A stretch of 64,000 nt of DNA from Halogeometricum pallidum JCM 14848 (GCF_000337095.1 NZ_AOIV01000041.1:252861-316860), one strand, 5' to 3'. Shown: positions 17,488 to 27,445, counted from the first letter of the stretch. Numbers and translations: made by a program. The notes: generated by a model not told the origin, from the letters alone.

Positions 17488-17918
17488 CGTTCACACCGAG
17501 CTATTTTACGGACTATAAGATACTTACCGGCGTCATTTGAACTGTAAATCACCCGTATCGAGCGGTTCGCCGGCGGCGAGCAGAGCGCCCGTCGAGTCTC
17601 GCCTCGCGATGCTCGGCGAGACCGCGTTTTGCAACGTTCACGAGATGCACGGTGTTTCGTGAGCGAACGAGAACGGATGCGTTCCCGCGTGAACGGGGTG
17701 TCATCTATTAGCAAACAAAACAGTGGGCTGTGGTGAACATCCGCGAGCGACCGCAGGGAGCGAGCGGTTCACCGGTGGCGAGTAGTCGTAGACCGCGAGC
17801 CTCCGGCCCTTTTTGGTCCAGCTTTTTGCGACGAGCGGTCGCGCTCCGCGCGACCCGAGTCAGCAAAAAGGTGGGTGTAAATGACCAAAGGTTAGTCTAT
17901 CGCCCCGAACCCTCGAAC
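17488..17918. other. gene-free stretch with repeats
   Basis: This 431-base stretch holds no convincing gene. It contains two copies of a 22-base direct repeat that differ at two positions (17559-17580 and 17761-17782, starting CGAGCGGTTC), a hairpin with arms GTCTCGCC/GGCGAGAC near 17596-17622, and an inverted-orientation copy of the dispersed two-hairpin repeat (17810-17875). Confidence 0.6.
17810..17875 (-). repeat. dispersed two-hairpin repeat, copy A
   Basis: Read on the minus strand it begins CCCACCTTTTTGCTGACTCG, followed by an inner hairpin (GGTCGCGC/GCGCGACC), then CGTCGCAAAAAGCTGGACCA. The outer arms TTTTTGC/GCAAAAA pair. It matches copy B at 22511 nearly base for base outside the inner loop. 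It is oriented opposite to the following thrC-like gene. Confidence 0.75.
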
Positions 17919-19094
17919 ATGGACACGAGCGAGGCGTTCCTGGGACTGGAGTGCGCCGAGACGGGCGAGCGATACGACGCGGACGCGACGGGTGCGAGCG
18001 ACGCCGGCGCGCACCTCGTTCCGGCCTACGACTACGACGCCGTCGACTGGGCCGACGGCGGCCTCTCGGACCGGCCGACGGACACGATGTGGCGCTACGC
18101 GGACCTGCTCCCCTTCGGGTCGCCGCTGACGGCCAAGGAGGGGGGGACGCCGCTCGTCGAGTCGGCCGAACTCGCCGACGAAGTCGGCGTCGGGTCGCTC
18201 GGAATCAAAGACGAGGGTCGCAACCCCACCGGAACCGTCCTCGACCGAGGCCTCTCGCCGGCCGTCACCGCCGCCCGCGAGGCGGGCGCCGAGTTGGTCG
18301 CTCTCGCCTCGGCGGGCAACGCGGGGCAGTCGGCGGCGTCGTACGCGAGCATGGCCGACATCCGCTCGTACTCGTTCGTCCCCTCGCGCGCGCCGTTCTC
18401 GAACAAGGCGATGGTGAACGTCCACGGCGGCGAGATGCGCGTGGTCGGCGGCCGCTACCCCGACGCCGAGGCGGGCCTGCACGAGCAACTGAAATCGGAG
18501 TGGCACACGCTCCAGGAGTTCGACAACCCCTACCGCCACGACGGAATCAAGACGCTCGCGTTCGAGGTGGCCGAGTCGCGCGGGTGGGAGACGCCCGACG
18601 CCGTCGTCGTCCCGTCGAGCACCGGCGAAGTCGTCGCCGGCGTCTTCGCGGGGTTCGAGGCGCTCTCCGAACTCGGCTTGACGGCCGAGGTGCCGCCGAT
18701 ATTCGCCGCGCAGGCGTCGGGGTGTGCCCCCATCGCCGCCGCCCGCGAACGCGGCGACGAAGACGTGAAAGCGTGGGACCAACCGGACACCATCGTCGGC
18801 GAACTGGAGATTCCCGACCCGAAGGGCGGCGCGGCGGCGATAGACGCCGTCGAGTCGTCCGGCGGCGACACGCTCGCCCTCGACGACGAGGACATCCTGG
18901 AGAGCGCCGTCGTCGCCGCGCAGACGGCGGGCGTCGAAGTCGGCACCGCGGGCGGGGCGGCGATGGCGGCGGCGTGGCGACTCGCCGAGGACGGCGTTCT
19001 CGGGGAGGGCGACGACGTGGTGGTCGTCAACACCGAGTCGGGGACGAAGACGGCCGACGTCCTGCGCAGCCACCTCATGGGACAGGGTATCTGA
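17919..19094 (+). CDS. threonine-synthase-like protein lacking the PLP lysine
   Basis: 391 residues, fold type II PLP family, closest in layout to archaeal threonine synthase (O-phosphohomoserine to threonine). The phosphate-binding loop 'SAGNAGQSAASY' (about 130) and later Ser/Thr-Gly loops are kept. However, the usual 'NPTGSFKDRG' reads 'NPTGTVLDRG': residue 108, where lysine forms the Schiff base, is Leu (codon CTC at about 18240). No nearby lysine replaces it in register. It may have lost synthase activity, use another lysine, or bind PLP or an amino acid only. ATG 17919 is the first start after the repeat region and lies before a conserved-looking N-terminus. Confidence 0.85.
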   Translation: MDTSEAFLGLECAETGERYDADATGASDAGAHLVPAYDYDAVDWADGGLSDRPTDTMWRYADLLPFGSPLTAKEGGTPLVESAELADEVGVGSLGIKDEGRNPTGTVLDRGLSPAVTAAREAGAELVALASAGNAGQSAASYASMADIRSYSFVPSRAPFSNKAMVNVHGGEMRVVGGRYPDAEAGLHEQLKSEWHTLQEFDNPYRHDGIKTLAFEVAESRGWETPDAVVVPSSTGEVVAGVFAGFEALSELGLTAEVPPIFAAQASGCAPIAAARERGDEDVKAWDQPDTIVGELEIPDPKGGAAAIDAVESSGGDTLALDDEDILESAVVAAQTAGVEVGTAGGAAMAAAWRLAEDGVLGEGDDVVVVNTESGTKTADVLRSHLMGQGI

Positions 19095-19151
19095 GCGCGT
19101 CGACCCGGCTGAACGGACGCAACGATCGGATTTCACCCAACAGATATTTCC

Positions 19152-19167
19152 TTTAGATGCGTCTAAA
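19152..19167. promoter_or_regulatory. perfect operator palindrome of the dtxR-like gene
   Basis: TTTAGATGCGTCTAAA has perfect six-base arms (TTTAGA/TCTAAA). It lies between a TATA-like box (CAGATATTTC, 19141-19150) and ATG 19175, so it covers the expected transcription start. This is the place and shape of metal-dependent DtxR/SirR-type operators, implying autorepression of the regulator-exporter operon. Confidence 0.7.
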
Positions 19168-19174
19168 TCCTCGC

Positions 19175-19912
19175 ATGTTGAGCGACGTGATGGAGGACTA
19201 TCTGAAGGCGATCTACCAGATTCAGTCGACGTCGGGCGCGCCCGTCGCCACCTCCGCCGTCGCGGAGTACCTGGGGAAGACCCCGCCCACGGTGACGAGC
19301 ATGTTCGGAAAACTGGAGGAACGGGGGCTCCTCGAACGGGAGAAGTACAAGGGCGTCGAGTTGACCGAGGAGGGCGAGACGGTAGCGCTCGAAGTGCTGC
19401 GACACCACCGCCTGCTCGAAGCGTACCTCGCCGAACACCTCGACTACTCGTGGAGCGAGGTCCACGACGAGGCCGACGCCCTCGAACACCACATCTCCGA
19501 GGAGTTCGAGCGTCGCGTCGCGGAGGTCCTCGGGAATCCGACGGTCGACCCCCACGGAGACCCCATCCCGACGGCTGACCTCGCGCCCATCGACCACGAG
19601 GAAGCGGACACGCTGGGCGACCACGGCGTCGGCGACAGGGTGGTCGTCACCCGCGTCAGCGACCGCGAGGAGGAGGAACTGGAGTATCTGGAGAACGCGG
19701 GCGTCCTCCCGGGGACGCGGCTCGACGTCGTCGACGTGGCCCCCTTCGGGATGGTCACCGTCCGGACGGAGGGCGGCGACGAGCAGAGCCTCCCCGACTC
19801 CGTCGCGGCCTCCATCCGGGTCCGTCCGTTCGAGGGCGACCCGGCGGGCGGCGAGACGAACGGGACGGGCGACGATTCGGACGGGTCGAACGGCGAGGTG
19901 CCGACGACGTGA
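19175..19912 (+). CDS. DtxR/MntR-family metal-dependent transcriptional regulator
   Basis: 245 residues. Residues 1-65 form the DtxR winged helix ('MLSDVMEDYLKAIYQIQST...AVAEYLGKTPPTVTSMFGKLEERGLL'). The dimerisation/metal domain follows (70-140, with 'EVLRHHRLLEAYLAEHLDYSWSEVHDEADALEHHISEEF' split over several helices and rich in Glu/His ligands), then an SH3/FeoA-like domain (about 150-215) and an acidic tail. Such proteins sense Fe(II) or Mn(II). ATG 19175 is preferred because the in-frame ATG 19157 lies inside the operator. The stop overlaps the exporter start by four bases. Confidence 0.9.
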   Translation: MLSDVMEDYLKAIYQIQSTSGAPVATSAVAEYLGKTPPTVTSMFGKLEERGLLEREKYKGVELTEEGETVALEVLRHHRLLEAYLAEHLDYSWSEVHDEADALEHHISEEFERRVAEVLGNPTVDPHGDPIPTADLAPIDHEEADTLGDHGVGDRVVVTRVSDREEEELEYLENAGVLPGTRLDVVDVAPFGMVTVRTEGGDEQSLPDSVAASIRVRPFEGDPAGGETNGTGDDSDGSNGEVPTT

Positions 19913-20616
19913 GCGGCTATCTCGAAATCCTCGTCGTCGCCTTCGTCACCCAACTGGCGGTGCTGCCCGGGGAGAAGGTGCAGTTCATCATCGCCGCCCT
20001 CGCCACGCGCTACCGACCCCTCGTCGTCGTCGCCGCCGCGGGGTCGGCGTTCGCCGGGTGGACCGCCTTGGAGATTCTGTTCGGACAGGCGCTCCGGGCG
20101 ACGCTCCCGCCCCTCGCGCTGGATGCCATCACCGCGGTGCTGTTTCTCACCTTCGCGGTGCTCCTCTACCGCTCTGCGCCCACGCCGGGAACGACGCACG
20201 GGGACGCGGCCGCCGAGACGGACGGCGGCTTCGTGAACCTCTCGGAGCGGGTGGACCTCCCGGCGCCGATAGCCCGAATCTCGGGTTCGTTCGGCGGCTT
20301 CGTCCCCATCTTCGCCATGATGGCCGCCGGCGAGTTCGGGGACAAGACCCAGTTGGTCACCATCGGACTGGCCGTCGAGTACGGCGCCACCTCCGCCATC
20401 TGGGCCGGCGAGATGCTCGCCATCATCCCGGTGAGCCTCGCGAACGCCTACTTCTTCCACGCGTTCTCCCACCGCCTCGACATGCGGAAGGCGCACCTCG
20501 TCTCCGCCGCCCTCTTCTTGTTATTCGGGCTGGATACGGTGCTGCAGATGGCGACTGGGTTCTCCGTCTGGGAGACGGCCGTCGGCGCCATCACGCACGC
20601 CCTCGGCGTCGCGTGA
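19909..20616 (+). CDS. GDT1/TMEM165 (UPF0016)-type cation exporter
   Basis: 235 residues from GTG 19909, six predicted transmembrane helices in two halves. The second half has the canonical E-x-G-D-K-T motif ('AAGEFGDKTQLVTIGLA'), while the first half has the degenerate 'LPGEKVQFIIAALATRY'. The family exports Mn2+ and/or Ca2+ in bacteria, yeast and plants. The four-base overlap with a DtxR/MntR-type regulator makes manganese (or iron) efflux the best guess. The asymmetric motifs suggest that one half keeps the metal site. Confidence 0.85.
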   Translation: MSGYLEILVVAFVTQLAVLPGEKVQFIIAALATRYRPLVVVAAAGSAFAGWTALEILFGQALRATLPPLALDAITAVLFLTFAVLLYRSAPTPGTTHGDAAAETDGGFVNLSERVDLPAPIARISGSFGGFVPIFAMMAAGEFGDKTQLVTIGLAVEYGATSAIWAGEMLAIIPVSLANAYFFHAFSHRLDMRKAHLVSAALFLLFGLDTVLQMATGFSVWETAVGAITHALGVA

Positions 20617-20652
20617 GCGCAGCGCACCGCCGCCCCGTACGTCGTTTCGGTT

Positions 20653-20661
20653 GATTTATCC
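20653..20661 (+). promoter_or_regulatory. TATA-like box of the lysE-type gene
   Basis: GATTTATCC lies 24-32 bases before GTG 20685, supporting that start and a leaderless transcript separate from the upstream operon. Confidence 0.5.
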
Positions 20662-20684
20662 GCCTCTCGACCCCGAGGACGGAC

Positions 20685-21410
20685 GTGACGAACGTCGCCG
20701 CGACGCTCCTCGCGGGCGTCGTCTTCGGACTCGCCCTCGCCGCCCCGCCCGGGCCGATGAACGCCATCATCGCCGAGGAGAGCGTCGTCCACGGCTGGCT
20801 CTCGGGGTTCAAGGCCGGACTGGGCGCGATGACCGCCGACGCCCTCTTCTTCGTTCTCGCAGCCCTCGGCGTCGTCGCCTTCGTCGAGGAGTTCCCGACG
20901 CTCCGCGCGGCGATGGTCGGCGTCGGCGGCGTCCTGATGCTGTACTTCGCCTACGGGGCCGCACAGGACGTCCGGTCGTCGTTCCGACCCGCGGACGCCG
21001 TCGGCGACGCTGACGCGGTCGGTGCGAGCGACGGCGGCGCCGACCGGATAGCGGGGACGGGGTTCACGAAGGCGTTCGTCCTCGCCCTCACGAACCCCTA
21101 CCAGATACTGTTCTGGCTCACCATCGGCGTCGGCCTGTTGGACCCCGGAACGCTGGACGTGCTGGCGGAGACGCCGTACGTCGGCGCGCGTCTGACCGGC
21201 CTGCTCGTCGTGGAGACGGGGTCGCCAGCTCTCGTCGTCGGCTTCTTCGGCGGCATCCTCGTCTGGGTCACGGGCTTTCCGGCCGCCCTCGTCGGCGCCG
21301 AGCGACGGGTGAACTCGCTGGCCCCCGTCGTCGCCGGCGTGAGCGCCCTCGTCCTCGCGGGGTTCGGCGCGCTCTTTCTCTCGCAGTCGGTCGGCGCGTT
21401 CTTTGGATGA
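20685..21410 (+). CDS. LysE/RhtB-family amino-acid exporter
   Basis: 241 residues from GTG 20685. Six hydrophobic segments and the N-terminal 'ALAAPPGPMNAIIAEESVVHGW' (the P-G-P-x-N signature) place it in the LysE family of amino-acid or small-metabolite exporters. A second signature, 'ALTNPYQILFW', begins the second half. A charged Asp/Ala-rich loop (about 100-120) separates the halves. The substrate cannot be told. It lies between the exporter operon and egsA, all in the same direction. Confidence 0.85.
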   Translation: MTNVAATLLAGVVFGLALAAPPGPMNAIIAEESVVHGWLSGFKAGLGAMTADALFFVLAALGVVAFVEEFPTLRAAMVGVGGVLMLYFAYGAAQDVRSSFRPADAVGDADAVGASDGGADRIAGTGFTKAFVLALTNPYQILFWLTIGVGLLDPGTLDVLAETPYVGARLTGLLVVETGSPALVVGFFGGILVWVTGFPAALVGAERRVNSLAPVVAGVSALVLAGFGALFLSQSVGAFFG

Positions 21411-21416
21411 CCGGGC

Positions 21417-21431
21417 TAGCGTGAAACGCTA
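21417..21431. promoter_or_regulatory. inverted repeat upstream of egsA
   Basis: TAGCGTGAAACGCTA has perfect arms TAGCGT/ACGCTA around GAA and lies 33-47 bases before the egsA ATG, immediately after the lysE-type stop codon. It could be an operator or the stem of a short hairpin; it has no T-run after it. Confidence 0.4.
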
Positions 21432-21463
21432 ACACTTTCACCCGTCCCGCGGGAGGGTCGACC

Positions 21464-22510
21464 ATGTTCGAGAAGTCGACGTGGATCAAGCTCCCGCGGA
21501 ACGTCCTCATGGGCCACGGCGTCGTCGACGACCTCGCGGACGCGGTGGACGAACTCTACCTCACCGGGCGGCCGTTCCTCGTGACGAGTCCGACCCCCGA
21601 CCGGGTCGCCGGCGAGGCGGTCCGCGGGCAGTTCGACGACCCCGCCTCCGTCACCATCGAGACGGCGAGTTTCGAGACGGTCGAACGCGTCGTCGACGCC
21701 GCGGAGGCGGCCGACGCGGGGTACCTCCTCGCTCTCGGCGGCGGGAAAGTCATCGACACCGCGAAGATGGCCTCCGAGCGTCTCGGCTGCGGATTCGTCT
21801 CCGTCCCGACGGCGGCGAGCCACGACGGCATCGTCTCCGGGCGCTCCTCCATCCCGGAGGGGGACACGCGCCACTCCGTCGCCGCCGACCCGCCGCTTGC
21901 CGTCGTCGCCGACACGGCCATCCTCGTGGAGGCGCCGTGGGAACTCACCACCGCGGGCTGTGCGGATATCATCTCGAATTACACCGCGGTAAAAGACTGG
22001 CAACTCGCCCACCGCCTGAAGAACGTCGAGTACTCGGAGTACGGCGGCGCGCTCTCGCAGATGACCGCCGAGATGCTCGTCGGCAGCGCCGAGTCCATCA
22101 AACCCGGACTCGAGGAGTCCGCGTGGGTCGTCGTGAAGGCGCTTCTCTCCTCGGGGGTGGCGATGTCCATCGCGGGCACCTCCCGGCCCGCCTCCGGCGC
22201 CGAACACCTGTTCAGCCACCAACTCGACCGCCTCGTCCCCGGCCGCGCCCTGCACGGCCACCAGGTCGGCGTCGGGTCCGTCCTCACCGAGTACCTCCAC
22301 AGCGGCGAGAACGGCGAGTGGCGCGACATCCGCGACGCCCTCGACGAGGTGGGGGCGCCGACGACGGCGGACGGCCTCGACATCGACGACGAGACGGTCA
22401 TCGAGGCGCTGACGACGGCCCACACCATCCGCGACCGCTACACTATCCTCGGCGACGGCGTGAGCGAGGAGGCGGCGCGGGAAGCGGCGACGTTCACGGG
22501 TGTCATCTAA
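21464..22510 (+). CDS. egsA: sn-glycerol-1-phosphate dehydrogenase
   Basis: 348 residues. It reduces dihydroxyacetone phosphate to sn-glycerol-1-phosphate with NAD(P)H, setting the stereochemistry of archaeal membrane lipids. Visible features are the nucleotide-binding 'ALGGGKVIDTAKMASERLG' (about 90-108), 'VPTAASHDGIVSGRSSI', and the zinc ligands in 'SGAEHLFSHQLD' and 'HGHQVGVG', preceded by 'CADIISNYTAVKDW' with its Asp. The length matches archaeal EgsA. A dispersed repeat begins at its stop codon. Confidence 0.95.
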   Translation: MFEKSTWIKLPRNVLMGHGVVDDLADAVDELYLTGRPFLVTSPTPDRVAGEAVRGQFDDPASVTIETASFETVERVVDAAEAADAGYLLALGGGKVIDTAKMASERLGCGFVSVPTAASHDGIVSGRSSIPEGDTRHSVAADPPLAVVADTAILVEAPWELTTAGCADIISNYTAVKDWQLAHRLKNVEYSEYGGALSQMTAEMLVGSAESIKPGLEESAWVVVKALLSSGVAMSIAGTSRPASGAEHLFSHQLDRLVPGRALHGHQVGVGSVLTEYLHSGENGEWRDIRDALDEVGAPTTADGLDIDDETVIEALTTAHTIRDRYTILGDGVSEEAAREAATFTGVI

Positions 22511-22620
22511 CCCACCTTTTTGCTGACTCGGGTGCGCGGAGCGCACCCTCGTTGCAAAAATCTGGACCAAAAACGTCCGCGACTCGCTCGCTGACGCTCG
22601 CTCGCCGCGGTACGACCGCA
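22511..22620 (+). repeat. dispersed two-hairpin repeat, copy B
   Basis: It starts directly after the egsA TAA. Hairpin 1 has outer arms TTTTTGC/GCAAAAA and inner arms GGGTGCGC/GCGCACCC (22517-22560). It is followed by TCTGGACCAAAAAC, then hairpin 2 (CCGCGAC...GCCGCGG, around 22577-22611). It shares its order and many exact blocks with copies A, C and D. Confidence 0.75.
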
Positions 22621-22735
22621 GTGGTTACCGCAACCGCACTGCCTCCGTGCCGCACCGCCCCGTTCGCCTTACACTGCCAGCCGAAACCTCGCTCCGAATC
22701 CGAAGAGGGAATAGCGACGCTTCCCAACTCCTGAT

Positions 22736-23362
22736 ATGGCAACTGCGAGCGCCGACAACGCGGTGAAGGAGCATCCGCTGGCCGTCACGGCCGTCCTCTC
22801 GGTCGTCGGCTACGCCCTCGTCGTCGGGACGTTCCTCGGGTGGGTGCCCGGACGAGTGTTCCCCGACCTCTCCCTGACGCAGGTGAACACGCTGTCGGAC
22901 GCCATCGCCGTCGTCAACGCGGTTAACGTTCTCGTCATCGCCGCCGGGTGGCGCTGGATTCGGGCGGGCGAAGTGCGCAAACACGCCGCCGCGATGGTCA
23001 CCTCGTTCCTCCTCATCATGGTGTTTCTCGTGATGTATCTGAGCAAAATCGGCGGCGGCGGCACGAAGGAGTTCGTCGGCCCGGCGTTCGTCTACTACCC
23101 CTACCTCGCCATGCTGGCGATACACATCATCCTCTCCATCGTCGCCGTCCCCGTCGTCCTCTACGCCCTCGTCCTCGGAGTGACGCACACGCCCGCGGAA
23201 CTCCGGACGCAGACGCCGCACCGCCGCGTGGGCCGCATCGCCGCGGGGTCGTGGCTCCTGTCGCTGTCGCTCGGCGTCGTCACCTACCTCCTCCTGAACC
23301 AGGTGTACGGCTGGCGGTACGTCGAGTCCGCGACGGCGGCGCTGGTCGCCGCACCGCTCTAA
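22736..23362 (+). CDS. DUF420 family membrane protein (cytochrome-oxidase assembly-like)
   Basis: 208 residues with five hydrophobic helices and conserved-looking His residues ('AIHIILSIVAVP', 'VTHTPAEL', 'TPHRRVGRIAAG'). This is the DUF420 pattern; a Bacillus/Staphylococcus relative, CtaM, is needed for haem-A oxidase activity. A role in terminal oxidase maturation is plausible but unproven in archaea. Its stop overlaps the stop of a small ORF on the other strand. Confidence 0.8.
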   Translation: MATASADNAVKEHPLAVTAVLSVVGYALVVGTFLGWVPGRVFPDLSLTQVNTLSDAIAVVNAVNVLVIAAGWRWIRAGEVRKHAAAMVTSFLLIMVFLVMYLSKIGGGGTKEFVGPAFVYYPYLAMLAIHIILSIVAVPVVLYALVLGVTHTPAELRTQTPHRRVGRIAAGSWLLSLSLGVVTYLLLNQVYGWRYVESATAALVAAPL

Positions 23363-23508
23363 TTCGAGCCCGTTCTCCCGTCCGTATCGGCCCCTTCAGC
23401 GCTCCCCTCGCTCGATTCGTCGTAGATGTACCCTACCAGACGAGCGACGCCGCGACCACCGACGCTCCACACGGCGGCCTGAAACGTATTCCCGTCGTGA
23501 TCGTTCAC
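23359..23508 (-). CDS. possible 49-residue small protein
   Basis: GTG at 23506-23508 opens a 49-codon frame starting VNDHDGNTFQAAVWSVGGRG, with a G-rich turn, 'ARLVGYIYDES' and an acidic tail. The composition (Asp/Glu/Gly/Ser-rich, few basic residues) is haloarchaeal-like, and its stop overlaps that of the convergent DUF420 gene by two bases. The rest of the 317-base gap between the DUF420 gene and the glycosyltransferase shows nothing else. Evidence is composition only. Confidence 0.3.
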   Translation of the reverse strand: MNDHDGNTFQAAVWSVGGRGVARLVGYIYDESSEGSAEGADTDGRTGSN

Positions 23509-23650
23509 CCCGTAATCGCGACGTAGCGGACGAACGCGACGGGAAAGAAGTGCTCGCGGAGCGTTTCCAGCGTGCCGCTCGTTCGAACTCGCCGGCGTAT
23601 CCCTCCGTCGCTCGACGGAAGAGGGCGGCGGGGGGTCGAATGTCGAGGAT

Positions 23651-23657
23651 TTTTATC
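23651..23657 (+). promoter_or_regulatory. TATA box of the glycosyltransferase gene
   Basis: TTTTATC is centred 26 bases before ATG 23680, so transcription should start at that ATG rather than at the in-frame ATG 23674. Confidence 0.55.
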
Positions 23658-23679
23658 GTCCGGTCGCAAGCCGATGGGT

Positions 23680-24738
23680 ATGCGAATCGCGTTCGTCTCA
23701 ATGTACACCGCGCAACTCCGAGCGGACGGTGCGACGAGGCGACTGCGGCGGGTGGCCGAACGCCTCGCCGCGCGCGACCACGAGGTGTCGGTGCTCTGCG
23801 CGAAGTGGTGGGAGGGGGAGGTGTCCGCCTTCGAGCAGAACGGCGTGGAGTACGTCGCCGTCACGGAGGCGCCGTCGGCGACGACGTTCGCCTCGAAACT
23901 CCCCTTCGCCCTCCGACGCGTCAAGCCCGACGTGGTGCACGCGGCGAACAGTCCGCCCGCGCAGGTGTCGGGGGCGAAGACGGGCGCTCGACTCCTCCGC
24001 GTCCCCGTCGTCGTCGACTGGTGGGCCGAACGCGAGGGCGACGCCCCCGGCGGATGCAGGCGCGCGGCCCGAAGCGCCGACCGAGTCACGGCGCCCTCGC
24101 AGATGGTCAAGACCGACGTGCGCGAGTACGGCGCCGCCGAGGACGCCGTCCGTGTCGTCCCCGAGTCCGTCGACTTCGACCTGATCCGGAGGGTGGGGAC
24201 GGACGACCGGGCCGACCTGCTCTACGCGCGGCGCCTCGACGAGCACGCGAACGTGGAGTCGTTCTTCCTCGCCCTCGCGGAACTCCGCGACAGGGAGTGG
24301 CGCGCCGCCGTCGTCGGCGACGGCCCCGAACGCGACGCCGCCGAGCGGACGGCCGCGGAACTCCGCATCGCCGACCGGGTGACGTTCCTCGGCGACCTGT
24401 CCCCCGAGGAGTTCGTCCCGGTGATGAAGGGCGCGCACGTCTTCGCGCAGACGGCCGCCGTCGAACCGTTCGCGAACGACCTGCTGTGGGCGTTGGCCTG
24501 CGGGTGCGTCGGCGTCGTCGAGTACCAGGCCCGCTCCAGCGCCCACGAACTCGTCGTCGACTGCGACCGCGGCGCGCGCGTCACGAGTCCGCAGGAGTTG
24601 GCCGACGAGATAGCGGCCGCCGCGGACTACCCCCAGAAGTCGATAAACGAGGCGTTCGCGGACTACGACCACGACGACGTGATTCGCCGCTACGAGGCGG
24701 TCTACGAAGAGGCGATAGAGGGCTACGGCTGGTTCTAG
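23680..24738 (+). CDS. family 4 glycosyltransferase
   Basis: 352 residues, GT-B fold. The N-terminal domain begins 'MRIAFVSMYTAQLRADGATR' with a Gly-Ala-Thr-Arg loop and contains 'KPDVVHAANSPPAQ'. The C-terminal nucleotide-sugar domain has 'RVVPESVDFD', 'RRLDEHANVESFFLALAEL', 'AVVGDGPERDA', 'VTFLGDLSPEE' and the acceptor/phosphate motif 'AAVEPFANDLLWALACGCV' (E-x7-E type, the second Glu replaced by Ala). It probably transfers a sugar to a lipid or glycan. It is a single gene; the acceptor is unknown. Confidence 0.85.
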   Translation: MRIAFVSMYTAQLRADGATRRLRRVAERLAARDHEVSVLCAKWWEGEVSAFEQNGVEYVAVTEAPSATTFASKLPFALRRVKPDVVHAANSPPAQVSGAKTGARLLRVPVVVDWWAEREGDAPGGCRRAARSADRVTAPSQMVKTDVREYGAAEDAVRVVPESVDFDLIRRVGTDDRADLLYARRLDEHANVESFFLALAELRDREWRAAVVGDGPERDAAERTAAELRIADRVTFLGDLSPEEFVPVMKGAHVFAQTAAVEPFANDLLWALACGCVGVVEYQARSSAHELVVDCDRGARVTSPQELADEIAAAADYPQKSINEAFADYDHDDVIRRYEAVYEEAIEGYGWF

Positions 24739-24789
24739 AACCCTCGGTAGAAAGATGGACCACCGCCGGAATGCCCCGCTCTTCGGTTA

Positions 24790-24870
24790 GCAGCCAGAAC
24801 GCTGAGCGTTCTGGCGACAAAGAACCGCCGCGACGAGCGAGCGTAGCGAGCGAGTCGCGGTACAACCCCT
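24790..24870 (+). repeat. dispersed two-hairpin repeat, copy D (divergent)
   Basis: Hairpin 1 has ten-base arms CCAGAACGCT/AGCGTTCTGG around one G (24794-24814). It is followed by CGACAAAGAA, then hairpin 2 with arms CCGCGAC/GTCGCGG (24828-24860) and a GAGCGAGCG-rich loop. The second module matches copies B and C; the first keeps only the layout. Confidence 0.6.
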
Positions 24871-24894
24871 CGCCCGTTCTCCCTCGCTTACCGC

Positions 24895-25047
24895 CTACCA
24901 GCGGTGCCCGCCGATGTCGAGAATCGCCCCGCACCGGGAGCATTCGTACACCTGAAGCGGGTCCGTCCTGGCGTTCCGCGCCGGCGAGTCGCCCGCGGAC
25001 GCACCGCAGCGCAGACACGCCCCTTCCGACCGTCTCATCGTCGACAT
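24895..25047 (-). CDS. 50-residue zinc-ribbon-like small protein
   Basis: Two Cys pairs (C11-x2-C14 and C36-x2-C39) frame a 21-residue loop: 'GACLRCGASAGDSPARNART' then 'LQVYECSRCGAILDIGGHRW'. This is the layout of the tiny zinc-finger proteins common in haloarchaea. ATG 25045-25047 gives 50 residues; a second ATG three codons in is equally possible. No partner is evident. It lies in a 407-base gap that otherwise holds only repeat copy D. Confidence 0.65.
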   Translation of the reverse strand: MSTMRRSEGACLRCGASAGDSPARNARTDPLQVYECSRCGAILDIGGHRW

Positions 25048-25145
25048 ATTATCTCACACTCTTGAACGACGGCTGAGGAGATAGCTCTCCTTGCGCGTTT
25101 CCGGACGTTCTCGGCGCACCGCCGGTCGCGGAGAACCGGAGGCGA

Positions 25146-25796
25146 CTACTCCTCTTCGAGTTCGTAGTCGCCGCCGTACTTGAGGAAGAAGAACGCAAGC
25201 CCCATCGTCGCCACCATGGCGAACGTCGTGGCGATGCCGAGCGTCTTCGCGGAGTCCGGCACGGAGGGGACGTTCGACGGCGCGGGCGTCGAGATGGACT
25301 CGACGACTTCGATGGAACCGACCATCCCGGCCGACTTGTGCGGCTGGCAGTGGTACTCGTAGGTACCGAGCGTGCTGAACGTGTGTTTGTAGCTGAATCC
25401 CTCGTTCTCGATGGGTTCGTGGCCGCTCCAGTTCGACCCCTCGGGTTGGCTGTCGACGACGATGTTGTGGTTGTCCGACTGCCAGTTGAACGTCACCGTC
25501 GTTTCGGGGAGAATCTGCAGGGCTTCGCTGGTCCCGGGCGTGAAGACGAAGTCGCCGTCCGGGCCGACGGCGACGGTTTCGCTTCCGCCACCGCCCCCGC
25601 CGCCTCCGCCGCCCGATCCGGTGCCGGTGCCGCCGCCCCCGCCACCCGTTCCGGTGCCGGACCCGCCGCCGCCAGTGCCGGTGCTCGTACCCGTCTCCTG
25701 CGCCGCGGCGGTTCCCGCCGCACCCGCGGCCGCCGTCGTCCCGGCCGCGGTCGCGAGGAAGGCCCGGCGGGACATCTCCGCGTTGCCGTCAGTCAT
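25146..25796 (-). CDS. halocyanin-type blue copper protein (first paralogue)
   Basis: 216 residues. A Tat signal (SRRAFLATAAGTTAAAGAAG) precedes a Gly/Thr/Ser linker (about 35-75), one plastocyanin-like domain (about 75-165) and a C-terminal transmembrane helix (about 185-208) with an acidic tail. The type I copper ligands are visible: His in 'DNHNIV', then Cys, His and Met in 'YEYHCQPHKSAGMVG'. It should carry electrons at the outer face of the membrane. It closely resembles the halocyanin at 41071 in the cytochrome b cluster, but stands next to a peptidase gene here. Confidence 0.9.
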   Translation of the reverse strand: MTDGNAEMSRRAFLATAAGTTAAAGAAGTAAAQETGTSTGTGGGGSGTGTGGGGGGTGTGSGGGGGGGGGGSETVAVGPDGDFVFTPGTSEALQILPETTVTFNWQSDNHNIVVDSQPEGSNWSGHEPIENEGFSYKHTFSTLGTYEYHCQPHKSAGMVGSIEVVESISTPAPSNVPSVPDSAKTLGIATTFAMVATMGLAFFFLKYGGDYELEEE

Positions 25797-25880
25797 GTTC
25801 GGCGCTTGGGTGTCCGCTGTAGTGAATACTTTGGTTTGTCGTTCGAGGATGCCCCCTCGGAGACCGAACCCCGACCCGGT

Positions 25881-26936
25881 TCAGAGCGTGTAGTCGTGCT
25901 CGCCGGTCTCCGAATCGAGAAAGGCCGTCAGCAGGTCGATAGTCGCGTCCACGTCGGCGACGTGGGCGCTCTCGGTCACCGTGTGGAGGTACCGCGTCGG
26001 CACGGAGATGGCGCCGACGGGCTTGGCGCCGTGCGTCTTCTGAAAGCCCGCGGTGTCGGTCCCGCCGGCGGGGAGAATCTCGTGCTGGTAGGCTATCCCC
26101 TCGGACTCGGCCACGTCGCGCAGGCGACGGTGCACCTTCGGGTTCGTGATGACGCTGCCGTCTTTCAGTTTTATCGCGGTGCCGTCGCCGAGGGCGGTGA
26201 CGTGGTCCCCCGCCTCGAACCCGGGCACGTCGTTGGCGACGGTCACGTCGAGGGCGACGGCGAGGTCCGGGTCGATGTCGAACCCGAGCGCCGTCGCTCC
26301 GCGGAGACCGACCTCCTCCTGCACCGTCGCGGCGAAGTGAACCGTCACGTCGGGGTCCTCGATTCGCTCCGCGGCCGCCAACATCGCGAACAGGCAGACG
26401 CGGTCGTCGAGGGCCTTCCCGGTGACGTGCTCGCCCATCTCGACGGTCGTCTGCTCCATCGTCACCAGGTCGCCGACGTCGACCGTCTCTTTCGCCGCCT
26501 CGCCGTCGAGGCCGACGTCGACGTACACGTCTTTCACCTCGTCGGTCTTCTCTCTCTGCTCCTCTGAGAGCGTGTGCGGCGGCGGCGACCCGATGACGCC
26601 GGTCACGTCGCCGTCCTCCGTGTGTATCCGCACTCGCTGGGCCTTCAGCACGCGGGCGTCCCACCCGCCGAGGGCGTCCAACTGGACGAACCCCTCGTCG
26701 GTGACGTGTCTGACCATGAAGCCAATCTCGTCCATGTGCGCGGCGACGGCGACGGAGTACTCGGAGTCGCCCTCCACCGTCCCCACGACGTTGCCCATCG
26801 CGTCCGTCCGCACCTCGTCGACGTGCGCCTCCAGTTCTCTACGGACCACGTCGCGGACGCGGTCCTCGTAACCCGGAACGCCGCTCGTCTCGGTCAGCTC
26901 CTTCAGCAACCCGAAGTCGAACTCGTAGTCGGCCAT
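25881..26936 (-). CDS. M42-family metallo-aminopeptidase
   Basis: 351 residues, dinuclear metal peptidase of the tetrahedral (TET) type that trims short peptides. Metal ligands appear in 'AVAAHMDEIGF' (His), 'GKALDDRVCLFAML' (Asp), 'ATVQEEVGLRGA' (catalytic Glu pair), 'ALDVTVANDVP' (Asp) and 'RYLHTVTESAHVAD' (His). All are intact, so the enzyme should be active. ATG 26934-26936 is chosen since the family begins just before 'LLKELTETSGVPGYE'. It is divergent from the MTH865-like gene. Confidence 0.9.
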   Translation of the reverse strand: MADYEFDFGLLKELTETSGVPGYEDRVRDVVRRELEAHVDEVRTDAMGNVVGTVEGDSEYSVAVAAHMDEIGFMVRHVTDEGFVQLDALGGWDARVLKAQRVRIHTEDGDVTGVIGSPPPHTLSEEQREKTDEVKDVYVDVGLDGEAAKETVDVGDLVTMEQTTVEMGEHVTGKALDDRVCLFAMLAAAERIEDPDVTVHFAATVQEEVGLRGATALGFDIDPDLAVALDVTVANDVPGFEAGDHVTALGDGTAIKLKDGSVITNPKVHRRLRDVAESEGIAYQHEILPAGGTDTAGFQKTHGAKPVGAISVPTRYLHTVTESAHVADVDATIDLLTAFLDSETGEHDYTL

Positions 26937-27070
26937 GCGCGCACCTTCCCGCAGTCGGGACAAAAACGCTCGGCTCCCGGAACGTATCGGAAACGGAGAC
27001 GTATCAGAACTCACAACGGGTTTGCCGTGGTTCCGGAACGTTTTTCCGGCGCATGCGTGCATTGAGGGTC

Positions 27071-27334
27071 ATGGCAGACGTAGAGGCGGAACTCCGCGAG
27101 GAACTCATGGCAGCGTTCAGCGACGCAGACTACCCCGTCAAGAACCAGATGGACCTCGTCCCCGCCCTCCCGAACGGTCCGGGCACGCGCTTCGAGGCGG
27201 GCGACGGCGACGTGAGCTTCACCGCCATGGAGATGGCCGCCAAACTCGGCTCGCACCAGAACTTCCCCTACGACGACGCCGAAACCCTCGTCGACGACGT
27301 GATGGAGGGGCTGAAGGCCGAGGGGATGCTCTAA
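27071..27334 (+). CDS. MTH865-like small protein
   Basis: 87 residues. 'ADVEAELREELMAAFSDADYPVKNQMDLVPALPNGPGTRFEAGD' followed by 'VSFTAMEMAAKLGSHQNFPYDDAETLVDDVMEGL' is the pattern of the MTH865 family, a small EF-hand-like helical fold known from archaea and some bacteria, of unknown role. A T-rich box (GTTTTTCC, 27040-27047) lies 24-31 bases before ATG 27071, which rules out the earlier in-frame ATG 27053. A dispersed repeat starts two bases after its stop. Confidence 0.85.
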   Translation: MADVEAELREELMAAFSDADYPVKNQMDLVPALPNGPGTRFEAGDGDVSFTAMEMAAKLGSHQNFPYDDAETLVDDVMEGLKAEGML

Positions 27335-27336
27335 CC

Positions 27337-27445
27337 GAGCTTTTTGCACACTCGGGTCTCCTCGGGCCGCTTTGCGGCCCTGCGGGGACCCTCGTCGCAA
27401 AAAGCTCGACCAAAAACTCTCCGCGGCTCGCTTCGCTCGCCGCGG
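27337..27445 (+). repeat. dispersed two-hairpin repeat, copy C
   Basis: It begins two bases after the stop of the MTH865-like gene with GAGCTTTTTGCACACTCGGG. The inner hairpin is GGGCCGC/GCGGCCC, closed by CTCGTCGCAAAAAGCTCGAC, then CAAAAAC and hairpin 2 (CCGCGGC/GCCGCGG, 27421-27445). Outer arms GAGCTTTTTGC/GCAAAAAGCTC pair perfectly over 11 bases. Confidence 0.75.

Follow-up and report, generated by a model that had tools for sequence, protein, structure and literature searches.

A haloarchaeal family of small hairpin repeats at gene ends, probably non-autonomous mobile elements

Elements in the Halogeometricum pallidum window

Three complete elements are present in the window, that is, the whole stretch of 64,000 nucleotides of Halogeometricum pallidum JCM 14848 DNA that was analysed, counted from its first base. 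Element A (17810-17873, minus strand) has a complete core of the form CACC-T5-hairpin-A5-GCTGGACC-A5 and was matched by covariance model R1 (G000:C41:270670-270733, E 1.8e-16). Unlike the two elements described next, it does not start behind a TAA codon; it is inverted and sits immediately upstream of a gene for threonine synthase (17919-19094, plus strand; best E 1e-83 with NCBIfam threonine synthase models, under their equivalog cut-offs). The site of element A holds an orthologous copy in genome G003, and degenerate remains in G004 and G002. Element B (22513-22573, plus strand; R1, E 8e-12) possesses a complete core with a short inner hairpin, followed by a second hairpin, CCGCGACTCG...CGCCGCGG, read from the sequence at 22577-22610 (plus strand). 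It begins 2 bases past the TAA of the gene encoding NAD(P)-dependent glycerol-1-phosphate dehydrogenase (21464-22510, plus strand; NCBIfam equivalog NF002022, 515 bits against a cut-off of 413). Element C (27337-27416, plus strand; R1, E 2.5e-13) has a complete core with a long nested inner hairpin, and likewise begins 2 bases past a TAA, that of a gene for an MTH865-like small protein (27071-27334, plus strand; Pfam PF07747, E 1e-26). Its second hairpin, CCGCGGCTCGCTTCGCTCGCCGCGG, was also read at 27421-27445 (plus strand). G002, G003 and G004 carry orthologous copies of B and are filled at the site of C, and G001 is empty at both sites.

Elements A, B and C share one layout, namely CACC or GAGC followed by TTTTT, a nested hairpin, AAAAA, GCTG or GCTC, and then GACCAAAAA. 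The six occurrences of TTTTTGC in the window all fall within these three elements (1.0 expected; none of 100 shuffles reached six). In the whole genome, TTTTTGC-N25-54-GCAAAAA was found at eight places, against one for the reversed control pattern. A preliminary description of this DNA had proposed at least four elements with one architecture, with B and C starting close to a stop codon and a second hairpin following the element. The proximity to stop codons was confirmed for both B and C. The second hairpin is present in B and C but not in that form in A, and the common architecture holds for A, B and C but not for the fourth candidate, D (24790-24870), in which the landmarks are missing.

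Candidate D has neither the T5 tract, the A5 tract nor GACCAAAAA; it holds a different hairpin and a typical second hairpin, and was rejected as a fourth intact member. The probable relic of an element's right half, CCCTCGGTAGAAAGATGGACCACCGC, lies at 24741-24766 (plus strand), 2 bases past the TAG of a glycosyltransferase gene. It matches the family consensus at 15 of 26 positions, which is weak by sequence alone, being equalled by 3.7% of random windows. The orthologous position in H. limi (G002), one of four congeners compared, is occupied by an intact copy, and it is this copy and the placement after a stop codon, more than the sequence match, that speak for a relic at 24741-24766. The hairpin formerly taken for the inner hairpin of D, CCAGAACGCTGAGCGTTCTGG (24794-24814, plus strand), is of another kind and may be read as inserted into the relic, whose second hairpin, CCGCGACGAGCG...GAGTCGCGG, has the typical form in the sequence at 24828-24860 (plus strand). 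D is thus probably a relic with another hairpin inserted. Related CCAGAA...TTCTGG hairpins were observed after GACCA in four copies elsewhere (L048, L097, L115 and L133), and this second hairpin family appears to be inserted at the GACCA of elements.

Family consensus and distribution

Model R1 was built from an alignment of 13 copies (A1) made without use of structure. Copy numbers come from covariance model searches and counts per genome are lower bounds. The genome of H. pallidum harbours at least 19 copies (E < 0.002), plus several weaker ones. R1 matches were found in at least 44 of 60 relatives, and in at least 39 of the 47 near-complete genomes of the order Halobacteriales, with a median of at least six and a maximum of at least 37 copies per genome among the 47. 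Genomes with copies include Haloferax, Halobellus, Halobium, Haloarcula, Halorientalis and Halomarina; among the R1 matches listed there was no copy in Haloferax mucosum or in the Haloquadratum walsbyi MAG J07HQW1. The search of this genome and its relatives, which the preliminary description had recommended, yielded many further copies.

In a phylum-wide R1 search of 148 genomes, matches were almost confined to the order. Weak matches near E 3e-4 were seen outside it in four genomes of about 1 Mb (G113, G131, G161 and G167). The plasmid collections searched gave one match, in Natrinema, and the phage collections none.

The per-column consensus of 113 copies reads, on the left, C(A)(C)C-TTTTT-N-C, a short variable arm, TCGGGT and a variable hairpin, and on the right, ACC-N-CTC, a variable arm and GC-AAAAA-(G/T)CT(G/C)GACC-AAAAA, so that the right end is (G/T)CT(G/C)GACCAAAAA. 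Elements measure about 60-85 bases, plus the optional second hairpin. Among 4227 Rfam covariance models none matched the window at its gathering score, and on six element loci the sole Rfam match, with E values up to 1 allowed, was a tRNA.

Structure and covariation

Among 80 distinct sequences, 17 of the 22 base pairs vary on both sides; at the first pair, 60 sequences have C-G, 20 have G-C and none has a mismatch. These pair counts lean towards structure, as the alignment was fitted to the model. The covariation score was 0.305, compared with 0.080 in shuffles (none of 500 reached 0.305) and 0.014-0.043 in slid versions. The first alignment of 13 copies, built structure-free, gave the same picture. 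In addition, the sequence 3' of copies gave more stable folds than its shuffled versions or DNA farther away.

Inner hairpins were compared across 14 groups of orthologous sites in five congeners. They are identical in 6% of ortholog pairs and in 1% of other pairs, and their mean similarity is 0.72 and 0.69, respectively, a value attained in 24 of 300 permutations. Since hairpins at orthologous sites in sister species are nearly unrelated, these blocks turn over quickly. Several species thus have element sites in common, but what these sites contain is replaced over time, and some of the covariation is passed on in blocks. Either repeated insertion at the same sites or conversion between copies would account for the turnover. 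Two-sided pair changes partly represent the replacement of whole hairpins, and therefore do not measure site-by-site selection. The compensatory changes that had been taken as a sign of selection on structure are real, and variation between copies leaves the stems intact, but the changes are at least partly block replacements.

Placement at gene ends

In 82 of the 176 distinct copies the start lies 0-6 bases past the stop codon of a coding-like ORF that reads in the same direction as the copy, against 0-3 for shifted positions, the gene calls near elements being crude calls from ORFs and GC by codon position and not an annotation. The stop codons before these 82 copies are TAA (49), TAG (24) and TGA (9). 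A tRNA tail lies within 45 bases before another 14 copies. The proposed placement at gene ends is thus strong and general. Genes that carry elements at orthologous sites include those for glycerol-1-phosphate dehydrogenase (before B) and the MTH865-like protein (before C), a gene that from the look of its sequence we take to be PhoU-like, tRNA-Pro and tRNA-Arg.

At eight tRNA loci (L107, L137, L132, L146, L147, L149, L167 and L084) an extra unit separates the intact tRNA gene from the element. Each of the unit's two hairpins is followed by a copy of the tRNA tail, inverted after the first hairpin and direct after the second. In G000 the unit is missing at two of the loci (L043 and L049). In Haloferax elongans (L181) the element downstream of the dehydrogenase gene is followed by an acetyltransferase-like gene, of which three other Haloferax species have just the 3' remnant at this site.

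Insertion and target duplication

Direct repeats with a score of at least 22 flank 32 of the 176 copies (about 18%), compared with 3 of 528 random positions at the same loci (0.6%); at a score of 25 there are 30 such copies, with none expected from re-paired flanks. In the other 144 copies no target duplication was seen. The duplications are 29-86 bases long, with a median of 46 (25 cases outside three arrays, the repeat abutting the CACC end), and the duplicated flanks are mostly gene ends. The clearest cases have the complete gene joined to the side of the second hairpin, at or a few bases from its stop codon, with a shortened copy of the gene's tail beyond the CACC end. Tandem repetition of element and duplicated flank, with a spacing of about 150 bases, was observed at L279, L280, L282 and L284, in Halobellus salinus, Halorientalis persicus, Haloparvum sedimenti and Haloarcula vallismortis.

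Filled and empty sites were found in related genomes. In one insertion the duplicated flank is the start of a gene. This Haloferax gene, presumably Gfo/Idh-like judging by its N-terminal sequence, has a single, intact start directly after its neighbour in eight genomes, whereas an element with a 43-base duplication separates the two in seven others. At another gene end, in the genus of G014, G014 and G105 possess an element with a 55-base duplication and G104, G106 and G107 are empty. An element follows the glycerol-1-phosphate dehydrogenase gene in five Haloferax species and is absent in five. Each insertion adds roughly 69-127 bases, a range implying that some events leave out the second hairpin. 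Mobility with target duplication is well supported by these sites, in agreement with the earlier suggestion of small non-autonomous mobile elements, for which target duplications and empty sites had been proposed as a check. Copies with clear long duplications are mostly inverted relative to the gene, and those past stop codons are in the sense direction; as the two classes differ, that one process made both is something we infer.

Similar to MITEs, the elements insert with target-site duplication, though the duplications (mostly 29-86 bases) are variable and far longer than usual. They could be MITEs of a transposase family other than Y1, making long staggered cuts, and their short length, their large number and a CACC junction precise to about 10 bases agree with this. 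Nevertheless, a near-fixed duplication length is typical of known transposases, and the wide variation observed here makes this origin rather unlikely.

Transcription termination

T5 tracts are present in 79-91% of copies, and T tracts lie downstream of genes, as in the T-stretch terminators of haloarchaea. In Haloferax volcanii these comprise a T tract just 3' of genes, with termination at the C that follows (PMC7237163), and T5 tracts lying no more than about ten bases from a stop codon agree with the mapped examples. Where a copy lies inverted, reading on from the gene leads through the second hairpin to two T5 tracts. In G002, G004 and G106, all that relics retain is the T-rich half adjoining the gene, GCAAAA(A)-CTGGACCAAAA(A), at the stop codon. 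The position of T5 tracts past stop codons and tRNA ends, these relics and the published Haloferax terminators together suggest use as terminators, and a terminator role predicted from position and sequence is likely. The two options of the preliminary description, a role at transcript ends and small mobile elements, thus each find support, and they are compatible with one another.

A5 tracts are retained at 0.94 and 0.89 next to a co-directional downstream gene and at 0.86 and 0.78 next to a convergent one. Being kept equally well where no convergent gene is present, they are not kept for site-by-site bidirectional termination, and this was rejected as their cause. A simpler explanation is that they belong to the structure of the element itself.

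Ordinary terminators inherited with their genes, and alike by shared constraint without being mobile, would also lie at stop codons and tRNA ends, and the same genes indeed carry copies in several species and genera. However, the sequence identity extends well past T tracts and hairpins, A5 tracts are retained without a convergent gene, and orthologous sites barely exceed unrelated ones in the likeness of their inner hairpins. Pairs of filled and empty sites, and also the long target duplications, largely refute such inheritance, which we consider improbable.

The strong covariation, the conservation of the unpaired TCGG and CTC segments and the fixed position past stop codons would also suit RNA elements of mRNA 3' ends, conserved mainly for stability, processing or protein binding. 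However, the T5 tract before the hairpin is expected to end most transcripts ahead of it, and copies with gene-tail duplications are mostly inverted, therefore the gene would carry the opposite strand. There is only a small chance that this is their main role.

Spread of the elements

We consider it probable that the copies constitute one haloarchaeal family of small non-autonomous mobile repeats, which insert at gene ends and whose T5 tracts are able to terminate transcription. An element would insert at a gene end and copy 29-86 target bases in most traceable cases, and since the target bases are duplicated the gene would remain intact. T5 tracts read outward at both ends, one beside the CACC end and two on the other strand, so that an inserted copy could terminate the neighbouring gene in either orientation.

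Long target duplications are unlike the Y1 transposase class, which counts against REP-like or PATE-like repeats moved by a Y1 (IS200/IS605-type) enzyme. Despite the short, palindromic copies at gene ends and the abundance of Y1 transposases in haloarchaea (PMC3119063), such movement is very unlikely, since the ends lack a GTAG or CGTC tag, Y1 counts (PF01797) showed no correlation with copy number (rank correlation -0.17, p 0.27), and six near-complete genomes with at least ten copies have no Y1 match. Three near-complete genomes with at least three transposases have no element. Y1 transposase was rejected as the driver, because its counts do not follow copy number, and so was target-primed retrotransposition, with a reverse transcriptase (RVT_1, PF00078) in one of 60 host genomes.

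For the mobile repeats proposed here, our guess is that copying takes place when replication or repair switches templates at a gene end. This route is favoured mainly because some tRNA loci have, ahead of the element, the tRNA tail in direct, then inverted, then direct orientation, a pattern that would fit fold-back switching. That a terminator-like hairpin spread to gene ends without a dedicated transposase, via template switching where transcription ends, is a tentative proposal, less likely than not. If true, it would leave long, variable copies of gene ends and rapidly exchanged hairpin blocks. The long gene-end duplications hint at an insertion process unlike both tested enzyme types.

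If the mobile-repeat reading is right, terminators across an archaeal order partly come from a small mobile repeat, and the evolution of gene ends is tied to mobile DNA. Haloferax is genetically tractable and its species differ in filled sites, so terminator role and mechanism are testable there.

Comparison with known systems

SPRITE, RUP and BOX of Streptococcus pneumoniae are likewise small, dispersed and probably mobile, and SPRITE has a terminator-like hairpin, as the haloarchaeal family may (PMC10969869). They differ in being bacterial, and the likeness rests on their descriptions, which, in the parts available, mention no long gene-end duplications. SMR-A of Haloquadratum walsbyi is also haloarchaeal, about 110 bases long and multicopy, with inverted repeats, and the mobilisation route of SMRs is unknown (PMC3119063). 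However, SMRs insert without target duplication into palindromes (PATE) of other mobile elements (PMC3119063), and the gene-end family makes 29-86 base duplications of gene ends. Similar to REP and REPIN sequences, which are associated with RAYT transposases, the elements are short palindromic extragenic repeats, often 3' of genes (PMC3733652). In contrast to the terminal GTAG/CGTC of REPs (PMC3733652), their ends are CACC/GAGC and GACCAAAAA, and they have a longer nested structure and no link to a Y1 transposase.

The T-stretch terminators of Haloferax volcanii differ from the family in being sites and not a dispersed homologous repeat family. Integron attC sites, like the haloarchaeal elements, are folded repeats right after a gene end, with a conserved outer stem and a variable terminal stem. 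Nonetheless, their R' box is defined as GTTRRRY, whereas the elements end in (G/T)CT(G/C)GACCAAAAA, and they belong to cassette arrays, whereas the haloarchaeal copies are dispersed. A description of the family was not found in the open-access literature searched; other papers may exist. Small mobile repeats with terminator-like hairpins are already known, and it is this hairpin family, together with its long gene-end duplications, that appears to be new.
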